From the NCBI GenBank assembly GCA_025331435.1, contig JAIWNI010000115.1:24201-88200 (forward strand): DNA of 64,000 bases. Reading direction: 5' to 3'. The DNA is from Choanephora cucurbitarum (Eukaryota; Mucoromycota; Mucoromycetes; Mucorales; Choanephoraceae). This document shows positions 41,845-64,000 of this stretch, piece after piece. Numbering within the stretch: the first letter of the stretch is position 1; each line of letters opens with the position of its first letter. The notes below the pieces were generated by a model. The model was not told the origin of the DNA. It was given only the letters and a program-made list of their open reading frames with translations, and ran no database searches. The translations under genes were made by a program, and so were the position numbers.

Positions 41845-42173
41845 TGAAAGGTGGTAAAATGGTGTGTATTTAGGGAATCATCGATTTGCCCTTTTCTTTT
41901 CTGGTTACTTCTCTGTCTTCTTGTGTATCTGTTACACCTATAGTACAATCCTTTATATATTTATCCTTTATTTTATTACTTTGTTCTTTCTTCGGATTTT
42001 GTCTCAAACATAACTCGAGAATTAGAAAAAGTAAGCCATTTTTTTTTACAATATCAATATCATATCATATACTTATCCAATAAAGCTTTTTACTATATAT
42101 ATTATCTTAAATATATTACAGACTAGTTAAATTCTATCTCCAAATCCAATCCGAAACAAATCCCAATATTTCA
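41845..42173 (+). repeat. 5' LTR
   Basis: 329 bp, TG...CA ends, same sequence as 46971-47299. A 65-aa open frame inside it is not a gene. Confidence 0.95.
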
Positions 42174-42218
42174 ATAGTTTTTCTAAATAAGAGAACATCA
42201 TCAAGTAAAGAAAGTAAC

Positions 42219-45200
42219 ATGGCGCAAGTGAACATGCTAGCTGCTGGTGTGATTCGCATTCCAGAGTTCAACGAGAAAATGGACCCTGCCCAGTGGTTAA
42301 AGACATTTGAAGCTAATATGAATGTCATCAAAATGGACGATGAGCAAAAACTGAGCTTAGTCACTGGTTATCTTGCATCAACCTTAATCTCAAGCTGGTA
42401 TTACCAACACGAATTCTCTGATTGGAATCAGTTTAAGACCAAGTTAACCGAAAGGTTTCAAGCACCTAAAGTCAATATGAATACACTCTTGGGGAAGATA
42501 CTGTCTGCAGGCCGTCTGGAAAATGAATCTATCAAAGACTATAATAATAGATTTGACCAAATGGTAGCTAGTTATGACAAGGCGAGAAGCAAGAATGAAG
42601 GCTGGGGTTCCATCAACACCAAGGTTCTCAAAGATACATATGTAGATGGGTTGAAGCCTCACTATTTAAAAATCATTGTCAAACAGCATGTCCCAAAGGA
42701 TTTGATCGAAGCACAAAAGATAGCTCTTAGAGAGTGCGATGATGCCGAAGAAGTAATGCTGACTAAACATGTTGTGAAAGGTGTCACGGCAGAAGTCCAA
42801 CTCAAGGAGGACAATGTGTTCATGAAGGACAAGGCCACAAAGAAGCAAGAAAACTATCCCGAAAAGAAACACAAGGATATAGAAAAGAAAGTCGAGGATC
42901 TTACTGAATCTCTTCAACGTCTCACACTTCTGGTCGAAAGGAATCAAGTACCCTCTAAAAATACTTGTTACAACTGCCAAGAGTCAGGACATGTAGCCAA
43001 TAACTGTAGGAAGAGTTGTAAACTTTGTCAAGGACAGTTAGGAGAGCATTTGTTTTGGAATTGCCCAAAGTATGAGAAAAGGCCCACTTCAAGTTCCTTC
43101 CTAGTTATGAAAGCTAATAAAGAAGAACCTTCTACAAACTATACTGAAACCTATGCTGTGGAGAAAAGAAAACACGAGAGTAGTTCTGAAAGGGATGTAC
43201 GAGTATCTCGAAGTGGAAAGAGAAATAAGGTTCATGACACCATCCCACCTCACTTAAAGAAGAAACAGGTTACACCGGGCAAAGTAACTCCAGAAACACA
43301 AGGGAAAAACACTCCGGATATGGTAAAAACTCCCAAAACCAATGATTCCAAGGACCTTGTGCAAGGAATAGACATCAACGAGATCTTGCATTCCAAGAGG
43401 TATACAAGTTCCTTAGATGAACTGATGAAGATCCCAGGAGTAAGAACAGCTATATTGAGGAAGACTAAGAAGACTCGAAAATCTCCCAAAACCAAAAGCA
43501 TCTCAAATAAAGAAATTGTTGAAGTGTATAGAGTAGAAAGAGGCAACACTATTCGTCAATTTGCTAATAACATCAATAATGGTACCGGGGCTCCTCGTGT
43601 GGAAGCAATCGTGGGTGGCGAAATGCTAGTTGATGCCATTCTTGACGCGGGATCTCACTGCTCTATTATGAGTCGAAGTCTCGCCGAGGACCTTAATGTA
43701 CCTATTACGAATGGTGATTCCACTGCTGGAAGTCGTATGGCAGATGGCAACTTAGTCAGACCGATTGGTGAAGTAAAGGAATTGCTAGTATCAGTCCAAG
43801 GTGTATTGGTTAAAATGTCTTTCGTTGTCTTCAAGAACCCGCCGTATGATCTGCTATTGGGTAGTGATTGCATGAAGCTGTTAGGTATCGCAGCTGATTA
43901 TTCCACATCTCACTTCTCCATAAGAACAGATAATGGACTGGTCCCATTAGAAGTTGCATTCGATACACACATACTCAGGAAGCAAAGGTTGAATCAAGGA
44001 GAACTTTCGTCCTCTGAGAGTGAAAAAGACTACACTTCGGATGAAGACGGATCTACTGAGGACGATACATATGACTCCTATTACGAAAGTTACCTTGTTA
44101 TTCCTTGTAAAGATGAGGGTGAAACATACTACACTATGGCTAATGAAAGATATAATGACCAGGCAATTGTTCCATTGGATCCAACTGAACCCACATCAGA
44201 TGAAGTGAAAACACAAGTATTGGAGACAAAAATAGGAGAATGTATTGAATTGGACGAGAATCAGAAGCATCAATTATTGAACATACTCAAGGACTACCTA
44301 GTGGTATTTGGAATAGATTATAATGATCTTAAACAAACCCATCTAGTAAAATTGCACATCGAAACAGGAGACCACCAACCAATACTCAAGAAACCGAATA
44401 AATACATGTCGCACTCCGAGCTAGAAGACTTGAAAATGGAACTTGACAAAATGTTGAAGACCGGTCAAATTGTCCCTACAATGCATCTCCCAAACAAGGA
44501 AGGCAAAAATTCTTTCGGATGGGCTTTCCCTGTCATGTATGTTGGAAAAAAGAACACGAAAGAAAGGAGACTCGTAGTACAGTTCCAAGAATTGAATGCG
44601 ATCACGAAAAGGGATCCATGGCCTCTGCCATCTATAACGCACCTAATGGAGTCATATGCAGGTGCAAAATATTTCACAACAATAGACCTTCTGAAAGGGT
44701 TCAACCAAATCCAAGTTGAAGATGACAGCATACACAAACTGACTATGACTACACCGTGGGGTTGTTATTCTTACAAAGTCATGCCTTTTGGGATTGTGAA
44801 TGGACCTGCTTGCTTCTCTAGGGCCATTTATCTGGCGATGCAAGACTTTATTGATCAATTCGTTACGACGTATATCGATGATATAACTATATACTCGAAG
44901 ACATTTGACGAACATTTACAGCATATTGCTATGGTGTTAAAAAGATTAGCAGAAGTGAATATGACAGTAAAACCATCCAAAGCTCAATTTGCAAACAAGG
45001 AGGTCGAAGTCCTTGGGTTCTCTATATCCAGTCAAGGAATCGCGCCGTGTCAAGCAAATATAGATAAAGTCATAGCCTTCCCTGTGCCCAGAAACAAAAC
45101 AGACATTAGAGCCTTCTCCGCCTTAGCAGGTTTTTATCGACGCCATATCAATTGTTTCAGCGATATAATTAGTCCCTTGAACGATCTTCTAAAGAAAGCC

Positions 45201-46958
45201 GCAAAGTTTGTATGGGAACGAAAACACCAGGAAGCCTTTGAAGAAGTTAAGAATGCTATTGGTAATGCAACACAATTGAAGTATCCAAATCCTAAGGCAC
45301 AATACAAGTTATATTGTGATGCTAGTGATCTAGGTATAGGAGCCGTGCTGGTGCAATGGGATCAAGAAATAATGGAAGACAGACCCGTCTGTTTCCTCTC
45401 ACGAAAGTTGACCCCTACAGAATCCAATTACCCTACGGTTGAAAAGGAGTGTCTATCATTGGTGTTTGCGTTGTCCAGGTTGAGAAGATATGTGTTGGAT
45501 AAAGAGCTGGTTATCCTTACAGACAGCACCGCAGTAAAATATTTGTTTACAAAATCAAATCCGGGTAGCCGTCTGCAACGATGGATAGTAGCAGTACAAG
45601 AATTCAAATACCAAGTACAGCACTTGCCTGGGAAGAGGAACATCGCTGCTGACGTTATGTCACGTTACCCGCCTATGAAACTAGAAGAAGGAGATGAAGA
45701 ATCACCCGACTACCATCTATACAATTCTTGGTTGATTGAAAGAGTAGAAGAAAGATATGAGACTCACTTAGCACAAATACATGAGGCATTACAAAAAGAA
45801 GCAAATGGAGAAAATACTGGTGACAAGAAACATCGAAATCTCTCCAGGTTTAGATTAGGAAAAGAAAAGTCGTTGTTACGCAAAGTTGGTGATAGATACG
45901 TGAAGGTGCCCACCTATGAAGAAAGGGAGAAGATATTGAAAGAAGTGCACGATGGACATGGCCATTTTGGTCAGGAAGCAACCTGGCAACGTCTGTACAG
46001 CCAATATTGGTGGCCGGAAGCTTACCAGACAGTAAAAGAATACGTCAAGACTTGCGAAGAATGTCAAATTCATTCTTATTTGCCCAACAAATTAGAATCA
46101 AAAGGGATCGTTCCAATTAAGAACCTATTTGAAAGGTTTGCCATAGATTATGTGGGGCCATTTCCCACCAGTGACAGAAAAAACAAGTATATCATTACCG
46201 CAGTGGAATACTATACCGGTTGGCCTATCGCCAAGGCAGTAAGAAGAGCCGATTCTGATACTACGGTGAAGTTCTTGTACGAAGACATCTTCTGTAACTT
46301 TGGTCCCAGTGCAAAGTTATTATCCGATAACGGCACCCACTTTACAAGCGAAGAAGTAGAAAAATTCGTCCAGTTCGTCAACACAACTCACCAGTTCGCA
46401 GCACCATATCATCCACAAACAAACGGAAAAGTAGAACATTTGAACGGGGTCTTGGTCCGAGGTATCAGGAAAATGGTGGAAAATAATCCTAAGAATTGGG
46501 ACACATACCTGCCGGTCATATTGTACGCCTATCGAACGAAAGTTCACAAGACATTTGGTATATCACCCTTCGAAGCCCTATATGGAGTACCGCCTAGGTC
46601 AACAGATAACGATCCATTGCAAACACTTGGTAGAAAACTAGGTATAGAAAGACTGTACTTATTGTTGGACAAGAGACTGGGTGATGAAGAAGCGTATTTT
46701 GCTCGTCAAGAAAGGAAAGAAGCAGCGAAGACCAAATTAGAAATTGGTGATCAAGTTATTAGGACCAAAGCAATCAAGAAGAATAAGCTGGATGCAAACT
46801 ACCAAGACCACGTATATGTAATCCTAGGCAAATTTCACAACAATACATATATCTTGATGAATCATCAAGGTCAAAAGATTAAGAGAGCAGTCAATGGCAA
46901 CCATTTGAAGAAATTTAATGCAAGAAAGAATCAAGCATTAAATATATTCAAGGCTTAA
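42219..46958 (+). CDS. Gag-Pol polyprotein of the Ty3-type element
   Basis: Uninterrupted 1579-aa frame. A retrotransposon gag domain (about residues 25-140) is followed by a zinc knuckle CYNCQESGHVANNC (about 249), a basic linker, an aspartic protease segment with DAILDAGSHCSIM (Asp-Ala-Gly instead of the usual Asp-Ser/Thr-Gly), reverse transcriptase (TTIDLLKGFNQI, VMPFGIVNGPACF, and YIDD at about 884), RNase H (LYCDASDLGIGAVL, about 1030), and integrase with an HHCC motif (HDGHGHFG...CEECQ, about 1244) and the DDE residues in FAIDYVG, LLSDNGTHF and NGKVEHLNG. No frameshift between gag and pol and no obvious chromodomain at the end. Confidence 0.96.
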   Translation: MAQVNMLAAGVIRIPEFNEKMDPAQWLKTFEANMNVIKMDDEQKLSLVTGYLASTLISSWYYQHEFSDWNQFKTKLTERFQAPKVNMNTLLGKILSAGRLENESIKDYNNRFDQMVASYDKARSKNEGWGSINTKVLKDTYVDGLKPHYLKIIVKQHVPKDLIEAQKIALRECDDAEEVMLTKHVVKGVTAEVQLKEDNVFMKDKATKKQENYPEKKHKDIEKKVEDLTESLQRLTLLVERNQVPSKNTCYNCQESGHVANNCRKSCKLCQGQLGEHLFWNCPKYEKRPTSSSFLVMKANKEEPSTNYTETYAVEKRKHESSSERDVRVSRSGKRNKVHDTIPPHLKKKQVTPGKVTPETQGKNTPDMVKTPKTNDSKDLVQGIDINEILHSKRYTSSLDELMKIPGVRTAILRKTKKTRKSPKTKSISNKEIVEVYRVERGNTIRQFANNINNGTGAPRVEAIVGGEMLVDAILDAGSHCSIMSRSLAEDLNVPITNGDSTAGSRMADGNLVRPIGEVKELLVSVQGVLVKMSFVVFKNPPYDLLLGSDCMKLLGIAADYSTSHFSIRTDNGLVPLEVAFDTHILRKQRLNQGELSSSESEKDYTSDEDGSTEDDTYDSYYESYLVIPCKDEGETYYTMANERYNDQAIVPLDPTEPTSDEVKTQVLETKIGECIELDENQKHQLLNILKDYLVVFGIDYNDLKQTHLVKLHIETGDHQPILKKPNKYMSHSELEDLKMELDKMLKTGQIVPTMHLPNKEGKNSFGWAFPVMYVGKKNTKERRLVVQFQELNAITKRDPWPLPSITHLMESYAGAKYFTTIDLLKGFNQIQVEDDSIHKLTMTTPWGCYSYKVMPFGIVNGPACFSRAIYLAMQDFIDQFVTTYIDDITIYSKTFDEHLQHIAMVLKRLAEVNMTVKPSKAQFANKEVEVLGFSISSQGIAPCQANIDKVIAFPVPRNKTDIRAFSALAGFYRRHINCFSDIISPLNDLLKKAAKFVWERKHQEAFEEVKNAIGNATQLKYPNPKAQYKLYCDASDLGIGAVLVQWDQEIMEDRPVCFLSRKLTPTESNYPTVEKECLSLVFALSRLRRYVLDKELVILTDSTAVKYLFTKSNPGSRLQRWIVAVQEFKYQVQHLPGKRNIAADVMSRYPPMKLEEGDEESPDYHLYNSWLIERVEERYETHLAQIHEALQKEANGENTGDKKHRNLSRFRLGKEKSLLRKVGDRYVKVPTYEEREKILKEVHDGHGHFGQEATWQRLYSQYWWPEAYQTVKEYVKTCEECQIHSYLPNKLESKGIVPIKNLFERFAIDYVGPFPTSDRKNKYIITAVEYYTGWPIAKAVRRADSDTTVKFLYEDIFCNFGPSAKLLSDNGTHFTSEEVEKFVQFVNTTHQFAAPYHPQTNGKVEHLNGVLVRGIRKMVENNPKNWDTYLPVILYAYRTKVHKTFGISPFEALYGVPPRSTDNDPLQTLGRKLGIERLYLLLDKRLGDEEAYFARQERKEAAKTKLEIGDQVIRTKAIKKNKLDANYQDHVYVILGKFHNNTYILMNHQGQKIKRAVNGNHLKKFNARKNQALNIFKA

Positions 46959-46970
46959 GAGGGGGATGAC

Positions 46971-47299
46971 TGAAAGGTGGTAAAATGGTGTGTATTTAGG
47001 GAATCATCGATTTGCCCTTTTCTTTTCTGGTTACTTCTCTGTCTTCTTGTGTATCTGTTACACCTATAGTACAATCCTTTATATATTTATCCTTTATTTT
47101 ATTACTTTGTTCTTTCTTCGGATTTTGTCTCAAACATAACTCGAGAATTAGAAAAAGTAAGCCATTTTTTTTTACAATATCAATATCATATCATATACTT
47201 ATCCAATAAAGCTTTTTACTATATATATTATCTTAAATATATTACAGACTAGTTAAATTCTATCTCCAAATCCAATCCGAAACAAATCCCAATATTTCA
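46971..47299 (+). repeat. 3' LTR
   Basis: 329 bp, matching the 5' LTR. Its right end lies 66 nt before the PDI start codon, so it now supplies the immediate upstream region of that gene. Confidence 0.95.
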
Positions 47300-59257: not shown

Positions 59258-59330
59258 TGGAGAAGCTGGGCGTCGATCCCAGTGCCTCTCGCATGCTAAG
59301 CGAGCGCTCTACCATTTGAGCTACATCCCC
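59258..59330 (-). tRNA. tRNA-Ala (anticodon AGC)
   Basis: Read on the minus strand, 73 nt starting GGGGATGTAGCTC and ending CTTCTCCA fold into a cloverleaf. The anticodon arm CTCGC-TTAGCAT-GCGAG carries AGC; the T arm is CTGGG-ATCGACG-CCCAG. The acceptor stem has one T-T mismatch (position 6/67) and one G-T pair. No intron and no encoded CCA. The T loop begins with A instead of T, which also occurs in some plant tRNA-Ala genes. The 5' end directly abuts a LINE copy. Confidence 0.88.
59317..59330. repeat. 14-nt junction repeat, copy 1 (within tRNA-Ala)
   Basis: TGAGCTACATCCCC, the 5' end of the tRNA gene seen on the plus strand. Repeated at 61084-61097 and 62851-62864, at each boundary between LINE copies. 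Interpreted as the target-site duplication. Confidence 0.85.
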
Positions 59331-60802
59331 TCTGGAATGCTCTGGCTGATTCCTCTCTACCCCGCCCACTTCTTGGATTGCTCATCAACTTGTTTGATGA
59401 CGTTCAGATTTCGGTGCTGATCGCTAACCATTCCTCTGCGCCTTTCTCTCCTGTCACTGGTGTTCTCCAAGGCTCTGTTCTCTCCCCGCATCTGTACTCT
59501 CTGTACATCAACTCTCTTCCCTCTGCGCTTCGCTCTGCTGCCTCGGCTGGTACTACTTTGGTATGTCCACCTGGTTCGCCTTCTACCTCTCCAATTCCTC
59601 TGAATTGTCTTCTTTTTGCGGACGACGTTGCGATCATTGGCTCTCGTAGTCAGGTCCAACGGATGCTGAACATTGCTGCTGAGCATTCTCGCTCCCTCGG
59701 ATATCGCTGGAGTCCGTCTAAATGTGCTGTCCTCAACGCACGACCTGATGGCCCACGATTGACGTTGTACGATGAACCGTTACCGCTCGTTGACGAATTT
59801 GTATACCTCGGTGTACCTTTTCGCTCAAAGGGCATTTCTGGTCCAGATCTTGTCTCTTTTCGTGCAGCTAAGGCTGTCAAGACCATGGCCCTGCTGGTCT
59901 CAGTAGGTGTCCACCGTAACGGCTTCTCTCTCCTCCTGTCCTCTCGACTGTATGCCTGCTTTATCCGTCCCAAGATAGAGTATGGCCTGGCTATTGCCCG
60001 TATCTCCTCTTCAGATATGAAACAGCTCGATGACCTTCAAAACCGGCTGGTCCGTATGTTCATTGGTGGCTCTTGGTTTCAAGTAGCAAAACACATCACT
60101 TGCCTGCCTGCCATGATTCATAGGTACAATGTCCTTGTCACAAGGTACGTCCTTCGTGTACAATACCTCCCTGATGACTGCTTGCTTGTGCTCTTACGTG
60201 ATCAACTACGGTACCCTCGCCTCTCTAAGCTTCTTCAACAGAATGCTCTCTACCTCTCTCTCCCTGATCCACCGCCTGTCTCTAATGTTGAGCTTCGTGC
60301 TCACTTTAGGCGATATTGGCAGGATCAGTTCAACCGCCAAATGGCAACTCAAGCTTCTCGTGGCCGTGCTGTCCTCTTGCGTGCCTGTCGTCCGTGCACT
60401 TCAAAGCCGGATCCAATCCTCTACCTCCCAATGACAACTACTGCTCGCAGTAGGCTTGTTCGTTGGCGTCTTGGTCGCTTTGCGAATCTTCGTGAAGAAT
60501 GTCCCTGCCTCTCCGGTGCCTACATTTCAAGAGATCATTTCTTGTCTTGTAGTGCACTTGATCCATCCCTCTTTTTCGACCTCCCTTCTCCTCCGGCTGG
60601 CGTTCATCCGATCGACCATGCCCTCAACTCTCTGCCTGTAAAGGCTTCCACTGGTCCTCCTCCTTTTTGGTCCTCTCTTCTCCAATTGCTTCATGCAATA
60701 GACTCTCTGGTGCATCCTCTTGCTACCATCGCTCCAGAACCTGATCCAAATGGATCATGGCTTCCTCCTCCTCCTCCTCCTTCTCCTCCGATCTCTCCAT
60801 AG
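59331..60802 (+). pseudogene. LINE ORF2 remnant, copy A
   Basis: C-terminal two thirds of a LINE polyprotein: palm and thumb of reverse transcriptase plus zinc knuckle and a Pro-rich end (PPPPPPSPPISP). No internal stop, but endonuclease and RT motifs 0-2 are absent, so it cannot be autonomous. Confidence 0.85.
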
Positions 60803-61083
60803 ACAAAATGACCTCTTTAGCCTGCTCACTGCGCAACCACGGTGGTAAGTGATTATCAAAGTTCCCATCCGTTGGTGCTGCCTTTGGGCTCTAAAGTTGT
60901 CTCAGTACTCTGTTGCTCTCTCTTCCTGTCCTTCTGTTTCCTCTTTTCCCTTTTGTTCGTTTTTCTGCTGGGTTTTTTGTACTTTTTCCCACTCTTTTAT
61001 TTAGTTTAGTTCATCCAATTCGGCTTATGCTCCATAGAGTTGCCCAAAGAATTGTTGTATATAATAAAATATAATGTTTCACC
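59331..61083 (+). mobile_element. LINE copy A, 5'-truncated non-LTR retrotransposon
   Basis: Starts directly after the tRNA-Ala gene inside the reverse transcriptase. The frame is open to the stop at 60802. Motifs: GVLQGSVLSPHLYSLYINSLP, LLFADDVAII (catalytic FADD) and a C-terminal knuckle CPCLSGAYISRDHFLSC (CCHC type). The 3' UTR (60803-61083) ends in an AT-rich stretch TATATAATAAAATATAATG without a long poly-A. Endonuclease and N-terminal RT are missing. Base composition is CT-rich and less AT-rich than the host genes. Confidence 0.92.
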
Positions 61084-61097
61084 TGAGCTACATCCCC
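61084..61097. repeat. 14-nt junction repeat, copy 2
   Basis: Same 14 nt as 59317-59330, exactly 1767 nt further on. Confidence 0.85.
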
Positions 61098-62569
61098 TCT
61101 GGAATGCTCTGGCTGATTCCTCTCTACCCCGCCCACTTCTTGGATTGCTCATCAACTTGTTTGATGACGTTCAGATTTCGGTGCTGATCGCTAACCATTC
61201 CTCTGCGCCTTTCTCTCCTGTCACTGGTGTTCTCCAAGGCTCTGTTCTCTCCCCGCATCTGTACTCTCTGTACATCAACTCTCTTCCCTCTGCGCTTCGC
61301 TCTGCTGCCTCGGCTGGTACTACTTTGGTATGTCCACCTGGTTCGCCTTCTACCTCTCCAATTCCTCTGAATTGTCTTCTTTTTGCGGACGACGTTGCGA
61401 TCATTGGCTCTCGTAGTCAGGTCCAACGGATGCTGAACATTGCTGCTGAGCATTCTCGCTCCCTCGGATATCGCTGGAGTCCGTCTAAATGTGCTGTCCT
61501 CAACGCACGACCTGATGGCCCACGATTGACGTTGTACGATGAACCGTTACCGCTCGTTGACGAATTTGTATACCTCGGTGTACCTTTTCGCTCAAAGGGC
61601 ATTTCTGGTCCAGATCTTGTCTCTTTTCGTGCAGCTAAGGCTGTCAAGACCATGGCCCTGCTGGTCTCAGTAGGTGTCCACCGTAACGGCTTCTCTCTCC
61701 TCCTGTCCTCTCGACTGTATGCCTGCTTTATCCGTCCCAAGATAGAGTATGGCCTGGCTATTGCCCGTATCTCCTCTTCAGATATGAAACAGCTCGATGA
61801 CCTTCAAAACCGGCTGGTCCGTATGTTCATTGGTGGCTCTTGGTTTCAAGTAGCAAAACACATCACTTGCCTGCCTGCCATGATTCATAGGTACAATGTC
61901 CTTGTCACAAGGTACGTCCTTCGTGTACAATACCTCCCTGATGACTGCTTGCTTGTGCTCTTACGTGATCAACTACGGTACCCTCGCCTCTCTAAGCTTC
62001 TTCAACAGAATGCTCTCTACCTCTCTCTCCCTGATCCACCGCCTGTCTCTAATGTTGAGCTTCGTGCTCACTTTAGGCGATATTGGCAGGATCAGTTCAA
62101 CCGCCAAATGGCAACTCAAGCTTCTCGTGGCCGTGCTGTCCTCTTGCGTGCCTGTCGTCCGTGCACTTCAAAGCCGGATCCAATCCTCTACCTCCCAATG
62201 ACAACTACTGCTCGCAGTAGGCTTGTTCGTTGGCGTCTTGGTCGCTTTGCGAATCTTCGTGAAGAATGTCCCTGCCTCTCCGGTGCCTACATTTCAAGAG
62301 ATCATTTCTTGTCTTGTAGTGCACTTGATCCATCCCTCTTTTTCGACCTCCCTTCTCCTCCGGCTGGCGTTCATCCGATCGACCATGCCCTCAACTCTCT
62401 GCCTGTAAAGGCTTCCACTGGTCCTCCTCCTTTTTGGTCCTCTCTTCTCCAATTGCTTCATGCAATAGACTCTCTGGTGCATCCTCTTGCTACCATCGCT
62501 CCAGAACCTGATCCAAATGGATCATGGCTTCCTCCTCCTCCTCCTCCTTCTCCTCCGATCTCTCCATAG
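61098..62569 (+). pseudogene. LINE ORF2 remnant, copy B
   Basis: Same protein as in copy A, with GVLQGSVLSP, FADD and the CCHC knuckle. 5'-truncated and non-autonomous. Confidence 0.85.
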
Positions 62570-62850
62570 ACAAAATGACCTCTTTAGCCTGCTCACTGCG
62601 CAACCACGGTGGTAAGTGATTATCAAAGTTCCCATCCGTTGGTGCTGCCTTTGGGCTCTAAAGTTGTCTCAGTACTCTGTTGCTCTCTCTTCCTGTCCTT
62701 CTGTTTCCTCTTTTCCCTTTTGTTCGTTTTTCTGCTGGGTTTTTTGTACTTTTTCCCACTCTTTTATTTAGTTTAGTTCATCCAATTCGGCTTATGCTCC
62801 ATAGAGTTGCCCAAAGAATTGTTGTATATAATAAAATATAATGTTTCACC
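61098..62850 (+). mobile_element. LINE copy B, same as copy A
   Basis: Same truncation point and same sequence as copy A over 1753 nt by eye. Its open frame ends at 62569. Read upstream, the frame continues through the 14-nt junction into the 3' UTR of copy A to an ATG at 61040, making a chimeric 509-aa frame that is not a natural start. Confidence 0.92.
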
Positions 62851-62864
62851 TGAGCTACATCCCC
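62851..62864. repeat. 14-nt junction repeat, copy 3
   Basis: Third copy of TGAGCTACATCCCC, again 1767 nt after the previous one, now followed by a different LINE segment. Confidence 0.85.
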
Positions 62865-63778
62865 GTTTAGGTCCAGGTTTAGGACTAGTGTCTCGCGCTT
62901 GGGTGATGCACTGTCCGCTCTGGTTGCTTCTCCTCCTACATGCCGCCCTGACATTGATGGTCTGAATGCTACTCTTAATGAGTGCTTCTACGATTCCTTG
63001 GATGGATCGGTTGGTGTGAGAGCACCTCGGTCTGGTAAGTGGTGGAAGAAATACTGGACTTCGGAAATCGAGTCTGCTGCTCGTGAACGCGATCGCTGTT
63101 ATAGTATGTGGCGTCACGCCCTAGGTGTTGACAAAGCGTACTGGTGGTCGTTGCATCTTGATGCTCATCGTTCGTTCCGTCGTTTGGTATCAAAGGCAAA
63201 ACGTCTCTCTTGGAAGAATTTTTGTGCCCAACTGGAAAAAGATTTCTCAAAAGCTACGGCCACTCTTTCAAGGATAAAAAGGCGTCGTGACTGCTCATCA
63301 ACCTATGCTCATCCTGACGGTCCTGCTGCATCAGTGGATACCATGGCCTCTCACTTGGCCACTGTCTACAATGGTTCCCTTTTGCCTGCGCCTGACGCTC
63401 GCCCTTCTGCTCCATCACCTCACGATAGTTTGCTTCCTTTTGCTCTGCCTGATGATTTGGACATTTTCTCTGTAGATGCTATCATGGATCACATCAAGCG
63501 GTTACCTCTACGCAAGGCACCGGGTAGCGATCACCTGAAAGCAGAAATGCTGAAGGCCGTTGCAACGGACCTTGCCCCGCTCCTCTCTCTCTTCTTCTCT
63601 CTGTGTTATCAATGGTCTTACACTCCTTCTCTCTGGCGTCTAGCCAGTGTATTTCCGATACACAAGAAAAACGATCCCTCTGATCCTGCAAACTATCGGC
63701 CAATCTCTCTGACGTCGGTTATGCGTAAGCTCTTTGAGTTTGCCATCTCTGACTGTCTCTATTGTGATAAAAAAAAGG
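62865..63778 (+). mobile_element. LINE copy C, fragment from upstream of and into reverse transcriptase
   Basis: Begins after the third junction with a frame reading FRTSVSRLGDALSALV and continues through the linker (KWWKKYWTSEIESAARERDRCYSMW) into the RT start: LPLRKAPGSDHLKAEML, PSLWRLASVFPIHKKND and NYRPISLTSVMRKLFE. It breaks off at about 63765 into an A-rich run (63769-63797). This part of the LINE is absent from copies A and B, so it is an independent insertion or rearranged piece, probably of the same or a related family. Confidence 0.85.
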
Positions 63779-64000
63779 TAAAAAAAAAAAAAAAAAGAGG
63801 AGTCGACTATATTCGTCTTTATTGAGGATTAGTCTCCAGTCTTTTCTATACTAATGATCTATCACTATTTATATGATTTTGTTACGTTCCTGAATTATAG
63901 TGAACAGTAATTTTCCGACAGAATAGTTAACCTTAAATTATTGGTGATTGTAGAATAAACTATCATTCCTATTTCTCTGCTGTGCTTTTAAAAGTATCTA
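63779..64000. other. A-rich run and unassigned sequence to window end
   Basis: Starts with an A-rich stretch (to about 63797), then AT-rich DNA with no recognised feature. Confidence 0.5.

Follow-up and report, generated by a model that had tools for sequence, protein, structure and literature searches.

Copies of an APE-type LINE at one fixed position of several tRNA genes in the fungus Choanephora cucurbitarum

The window analysed here is a 64,000-nt stretch of the genome of the fungus Choanephora cucurbitarum (assembly GCA_025331435.1; 33.4 Mb, 357 contigs). It covers positions 24201-88200 of contig JAIWNI010000115.1 (C19), up to the last base of this contig. Close to this end, copies of a long interspersed nuclear element (LINE) stand beside a tRNA-Ala(AGC) gene. 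The gene was called intact by ARAGORN at 59258-59330 on the minus strand, and was also recovered with Rfam RF00005 (54.4 bits, G000:C19:83458-83530); a sequence-only reading of this stretch had likewise described the tRNA as left whole beside the element. The first 14 nt of the gene therefore occupy 59317-59330, where the plus strand reads TGAGCTACATCCCC, that is, tRNA positions 14 to 1. The same 14-mer recurs exactly at 61084-61097 and 62851-62864, and no other match was found in the window even when 2 mismatches were allowed. A shuffle control (100 shuffles, 2 mismatches) gave a mean of 0.25 matches and a largest value of 2, against the 3 observed.

The three 14-mers, identified by the 14-mer search and a two-sided junction test as copies 1 to 3 of a 14-nt target-site duplication, fall exactly at the joins of three LINE segments on the plus strand, as the sequence-only reading had claimed. 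Unit A (59331-61083) comprises the C-terminal part of the second open reading frame (ORF2) and the 3′ untranslated region (UTR); it is 5′-truncated, ends in ...ATAATGTTTCACC, and shares 99.8% identity over 1753 nt with the copy on contig C90. Unit B (61098-62850) is the same 1753-nt 3′ piece with 100% identity and an identical truncation point in the pairwise alignment. Segment 3 (62865-63762) comes from farther 5′ within ORF2 and corresponds to element positions 1975-2873 of the C40 copy. It is also 5′-truncated, at a point different from that of units A and B, and is interrupted; its own 3′ end is absent from contig C19. Its identity is 97.2-99.3% to 8 of the 11 longer copies and 95.2-96.5% to C40, C235 unit 1 and C251. 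The three units had been read as repeated insertion at one tRNA position. Since unit B matches unit A base for base, down to the truncation point, the two could not be counted as independent insertions; three insertions were therefore rejected for the window, for which two is the largest number shown. The pair may represent one insertion that was duplicated or an assembly effect, which we regard as equally probable as repeated insertion in this case.

Element 3′ ends were sought in the whole assembly with a sequence pattern, which gave 22 matches, against 8 for the backwards control, and which would miss more diverged ends. Two matches (L039 and L060) are not preceded by element sequence; the remaining 20 are element 3′ ends, and the junctions of all of them were read. 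Seventeen of them continue with TGAGCYA and 7 further nucleotides that vary with the tRNA. This 14-mer corresponds to tRNA positions 14 to 1, and the 3′ junction falls in each case between positions 14 and 15. The motif TGAGCYA would be expected about once in 8,000 per site, assuming equal base frequencies; TGA follows the junction directly in 19 of the 20 ends. The on-target ends belong to tRNA-Ala (4, including the identical window units A and B), tRNA-Lys-CTT (4), tRNA-Ile (3), tRNA-Tyr (2) and tRNA-Lys-TTT (1), with 3 more at the tRNA-like 14-mer GCTTCCTTGGCTCA; 14 of the 17 match a tRNA gene present in the assembly. This scoring of 3′ ends had been named beforehand as a check in the sequence-only reading. 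Its proposal of a tRNA-targeting non-LTR (long terminal repeat) retrotransposon is supported in a wider form, in which the site is common to several tRNA types.

At 7 loci (Ala, three Ile, two Tyr and Lys), the insertion is bordered on its 5′ side by an intact tRNA gene. Of the 5 exact matches to the Ala 14-mer in the assembly, one is in a tRNA-Ala gene that carries an element and the other 4 are at LINE 3′ ends. For the Ile 14-mer there are 6 exact matches; 3 lie in tRNA-Ile genes, each of which carries an element, and 3 at LINE 3′ ends. Three tRNA-Tyr genes were found by pattern, two of them with an element and one, on C9, unoccupied. Among the RF00005 matches listed (63 of 1531 candidates scored), 5 of 52 tRNA genes carried an element. 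A box-A tRNA pattern gave 5 matches only and does not represent a tRNA census. The possibility that the 14 nt are internal LINE sequence was rejected, as the match between unit B and other copies begins only at the first base of the unit. The 14 nt also vary with the tRNA type, and they are therefore a target duplication.

The two-sided duplication test covered 13 of the 20 copies; C113a, C347, C147, three C235 ends and C294 unit 0 were left out. A matching 14-nt duplication is present in 11 of the 13, one of which reads 15 through a shared next base. In two copies a single extra base separates the 14-mer from the element; the gap between the two is 0-1 nt. Because the duplication spans tRNA positions +1 to +14, the tRNA stays whole and the insertion site is rebuilt. 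When the tRNA-Tyr flanks on C90 and C303 were rejoined without the element, they aligned with the unoccupied paralogous tRNA-Tyr on C9. The likeness outside the tRNA is modest and includes upstream CCGGA motifs, which indicates that the sequence beyond the element resembles the tRNA upstream flank displaced by the insertion. As a separate observation, CCGGA-type motifs stand upstream of tRNA-Tyr genes and also beyond the LINE at occupied genes (L067, L024, L030), and similar motifs lie beyond the Ala 14-mers in L025 and L026; the motif is possibly a tRNA upstream element.

The elements are oriented away from the tRNA and form stacked arrays. On C294 (tRNA-Lys), four elements are arranged head to tail, with the Lys 14-mer after all four 3′ ends, and a piece of a further element lies at the contig start. 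The outermost of the four belongs to an older subfamily (unit 0 and unit 1 are 89.6% identical); units 1 and 2 share 99.8% identity. The three elements on C235 are all followed by the same 14-mer; identity is 94.9% between units 1 and 2, and 98.5% between unit 2 and the C292 copy. The 5′ truncation points vary among the array members. These sequence comparisons identify the C294 and C235 arrays as the product of recurrent insertion at a single site. A repeat of about 500 bp (71-75% identical) was also observed on one side of the C235 array (L028 627-1115) and, in inverted orientation, on either side of the C251 element (L032 1-509 and 5365-6000).

The near-full-length copies are about 4.78-4.84 kb and contain two ORFs. 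ORF1 encodes about 317 aa, and its predicted model consists of a long helix followed by an alpha/beta domain; no match of this predicted fold to the PDB was found at E <= 0.001. For comparison, an L1-like ORF1 has a coiled coil, an RRM and a C-terminal domain. ORF2 encodes about 1,120-1,130 aa and matches Exo_endo_phos_2, Exo_endo_phos and RVT_1 above the Pfam cut-offs, with the apurinic/apyrimidinic endonuclease (APE)-like domain at the N-terminal (residues 28-240). Neither an RNase H family nor zf-RVT (PF13966) was found among the ORF2 Pfam matches at E up to 1. The best match of the predicted ORF2 model (mean predicted local distance difference test score, pLDDT, 79.9) is the full-length human L1 ORF2p (E 3e-30), followed by R2 and then by the L1 endonuclease alone. 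No direct terminal repeat was seen at the ends of the copies. The element has an APE-like endonuclease and a reverse transcriptase (RT) in one ORF without an LTR, and its copies show 5′ truncation, a common 3′ end and target-site duplications; these are the features of an APE-type LINE. The NeSL/R2-like elements have a C-terminal restriction-like endonuclease and no APE domain, in contrast to the N-terminal APE-like domain here. Most full-length copies start near CTTTTCTTTCGC, preceded by a few variable leading bases, and the element ends in ...TTTCACC, not in poly(A). The C303 copy (L030) has GTGAAAC and a run of T ahead of the 5′ UTR at its 5′ junction, and this heptamer is reverse-complementary to the GTTTCAC that lies near the 3′ end of the element itself.

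ORF2 is open in C303, C347, C90 and C235; the other copies have stops or frame shifts. The ratio of nonsynonymous to synonymous substitution rates (dN/dS) is 0.11-0.20 among the four open ORF2s (6 pairs), which indicates that the proteins were under selection during the spread of the copies. The copies are also mosaic. Between C303 and C90, identity is 76% over the first 500 alignment columns and reaches 99.6-100% in the last four blocks. Among C303, C90, C235, C40 and C294, some blocks of the 5′ UTR and ORF1 differ by 15-24%; the later blocks are mostly more than 94% identical, with C40 down to 87-91% at the 3′ end. This suggests recombination or template switching between copies. The LINE protein matches with organism names are mostly from Mucorales (Mucor, Gilbertella, Rhizopus; among them Mucor velutinosus, Gilbertella persicaria and Rhizopus stolonifer), where relatives of ORF2 reach 66% protein identity (Mucor saturninus), and a 99% identical ORF1 is present on an ENA contig. 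For one host gene, the highest-placed matches with organism names were from Jimgerdemannia (60% identity), Acaulospora (51%), Cunninghamella (63%) and Absidia (70% over 64% of the query), which safely indicates Mucoromycota and probably Mucorales. Scans of viral and genome contigs for close relatives returned none, only distant RTs at 21-31%. An ORF2 search of the assembly gave at least 45 matches (41 of 184 candidates scored), including older relatives. One of these, on C146 (65-70% protein identity), starts about 0.9 kb from a tRNA-Thr and lacks its 3′ end; an ORF1 was looked for in this copy and not found. No tRNA was found in 1.2-1.3 kb at the 3′ sides of the older relatives on C326 and C357, and an ORF1 on C295 lies about 6 kb from an Rfam tRNA match and is thus not adjacent to it. 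Other older relatives are at C112:621594, C256, C16 and C350.

Taken as a whole, the data are very probably best explained by an active or recently active, tRNA-gene-specific APE-type LINE family in this fungus, most copies of which lie at one position relative to tRNA genes (17 of the 20 3′ ends found). The mode of working proposed here combines the junctions with established knowledge of target-primed reverse transcription, and is like that of known site-specific LINEs. The endonuclease of the element would nick the tRNA-sense strand inside box A, directly 3′ of A14 (TRGCTCA^), and the freed ...GCTCA 3′ end would prime reverse transcription of the element RNA. The second strand would be cut 14 bp away, at the -1/+1 boundary of the tRNA. 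Repair would then copy the 14 nt and rebuild a full tRNA gene, with boxes A and B, on one side. The rebuilt target would be open to the next insertion, and older copies would be pushed outward.

Several observations weigh against this explanation. Three of the 20 ends (C113b, C5 and C147) are not at a recognised tRNA gene; the sequence-only reading had named copies at random sites with unrelated duplications as contrary evidence, and these three count against it, with the other 17 on target. The single Lys-TTT gene found (C112) is unoccupied, and for the 14-mer GCTTCCTTGGCTCA at the three C235 ends the assembly contains no intact tRNA gene; elsewhere this 14-mer recurs exactly only on C76 and C112, at sites that are not tRNAs. 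Seven of the 20 ends fall outside the two-sided test, several owing to contig ends. Two of the 13 tested copies have no matching duplication: C175 (L025) combines tRNA-Ile at the 5′ side with the tRNA-Ala 14-mer at the other, 3′ side, and C251 lacks a tRNA on the 5′ side. These mismatches may be due to recombination between copies or to assembly joins. The C303 copy has about 20 nt unaligned between the tRNA and the element. Moreover, the mechanism is drawn from the anatomy of the junctions, from which the order of the nicks and the mode of recognition are inferred.

The off-target copies also bear on how the site might be recognised. The C113b copy has TGAAATAACCAATT on both sides and the C5 copy has TGAGTGGTCAATAA on both sides; both are 14-nt duplications that start with TGA. 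An ARAGORN scan of 7 kb around the two copies (for C5, only about 100 bases downstream) found no tRNA. The TGA start and the 14-nt spacing away from tRNA genes favour direct reading of the sequence by the endonuclease, and these duplications suggest that the enzyme could read DNA itself. The C147 copy has TGTGCTATTCGCC at its 3′ flank, the sole readable side; this flank was tested as a mutated tRNA copy, and the one further match to it, on C22, is no tRNA. The DNA sequence itself, with TGAGCYA as the core, probably supplies most of the specificity. In its full form, the proposal has a somewhat better than even chance: the APE endonuclease would read the core of box A, enter many tRNA types at one nucleotide and cut the other strand at the first base of the tRNA. 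The gene would always be rebuilt, giving a harmless and self-renewing niche for which no RNA polymerase III (Pol III) factor is needed.

A putative contribution of Pol III factors to targeting is possible. The corresponding alternative departs from the best explanation only in the mode of site recognition: Pol III factors would guide the element, as with TRE5-A and Ty3, and the placement of TFIIIC/TFIIIB, not the DNA sequence, would set the position. The targets are indeed Pol III genes of several types, and the ORF1 protein of TRE5-A is described as interacting with TFIIIB (reviewed in PMC5911963). However, the position is exact to the nucleotide, with TGA following in nearly all ends, and the C113b and C5 copies carry the same type of 14-nt TGA duplication where no tRNA was called. 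Guidance by Pol III factors as the determinant of position is rather unlikely.

The other two alternatives concern the origin of the repeated blocks and of the 14 nt. The blocks could be tandem duplications of one insertion, through unequal crossing-over or assembly, as the identity and shared truncation point of window units A and B and the near-identity of C294 units 1 and 2 would allow; contigs C19, C113, C235 and C347 also end inside or near LINE copies. However, the divergence of C235 units 1 and 2 and of C294 units 0 and 1, and the varying truncation points in the arrays, do not fit, and copies are also present at separate Ile and Tyr genes. Tandem duplication leaves the family as a whole unexplained; it is refuted at that level and highly improbable as a general account. 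The 14 nt could instead derive from a tRNA fragment that primed reverse transcription and was joined to the end of the element with no gene cut. The C251 and C175 copies, with a tRNA 14-mer at the 3′ side and not the same tRNA at the 5′ side, might be read in this way; however, an intact matching tRNA stands on the other side at C90, C303, C292, C40 and C294, and the distal flank of the Tyr copies resembles the tRNA-Tyr upstream flank. Priming by a tRNA fragment is refuted where both sides are readable, and hardly any likelihood is left to it.

The tRNA-gene-specific LINE family may be compared with several published systems. The TRE5 and TRE3 elements of Dictyostelium are also two-ORF APE LINEs at tRNA genes; TRE5 is inserted about 47 bp upstream and TRE3 downstream of the gene, and TRE5 likewise has the orientation opposite to the tRNA, with tandems possible (PMC5391098, PMC5911963). 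In contrast to the TRE5 window, the insertion here is next to tRNA +1, with the 3′ junction at 14/15; and whereas TRE5-A and TRE3-A end in oligo(A), this element ends in ...TTTCACC. The nearest published insertion position found is that of NLTR-A from Dictyostelium purpureum, 2-6 bp upstream of tRNA genes (PMC5006619); NLTR-B lies 39-64 bp upstream. NLTR-A is described with an RNase H domain and a variable distance, unlike the element here, which has no RNase H match and a nearly constant gap; NLTR-A may also nick inside the tRNA. The NeSL-related elements NeSL-1_TV (tRNA-Pro), LIN15_SM (tRNA-Arg) and LIN25_SM (tRNA-Glu) are reported to be tRNA-gene-specific non-LTR elements (PMC4640811), each named for one tRNA, whereas several tRNA types are used here. 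For Dada, a group of DNA transposons in Perkinsus, putative duplications of the box-A sequence TAGCTC are described in tRNA-Ile and tRNA-Tyr genes (PMC3706591). The target is similar and convergent; however, Dada uses a DDE transposase, with no machinery in common, and each Dada family is restricted to its own tRNA genes.

Among fungi, Grem-LINE1 of Mucor is described as an L1-like, two-ORF LINE of Mucoromycotina, pericentric and with a zf-RVT domain (PMC7377519); the zf-RVT domain was not found in the present element. Ty3-like elements of Rhizopus, which are not LINEs, are reported to co-localise often with tRNA genes (PMC2699053). A 2018 review stated that the target specificity of fungal retrotransposons, including LINEs, was not fully worked out, and expected Pol III targeting (PMC5911963). 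In the excerpts of open-licence papers searched, no fungal LINE inserting inside tRNA genes was found, nor the combination of an APE endonuclease, a fixed in-gene position, several tRNA types and a fungal host. The published tRNA-targeting APE LINEs found there are from social amoebae; their insertions lie next to the gene, and TRE5-A requires Pol III factors. Here, a fungal APE-type LINE enters the tRNA gene itself, and the 14-nt duplication is just the segment that keeps the tRNA whole. The system provides a clear test of how an APE endonuclease acquires sequence specificity, and also bears on whether LINE arrays beside tRNA genes alter tRNA expression. The ORF2 relatives in Mucorales make the age of the tRNA-targeting habit testable.

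Two other repeats were observed in the window. LINE segment 3 is interrupted by a different dispersed repeat, which occupies 63763-64000 up to the contig end, starts in an A-rich stretch, and is present at 8 places in the genome including the window, with 69-100% identity. A Ty3/gypsy-type element lies at 41845-47270, with flanking repeats identical over at least 300 nt and one ORF of 1579 aa that contains RT, RNase H, integrase, aspartyl protease and zinc knuckle domains and a weak gag match.

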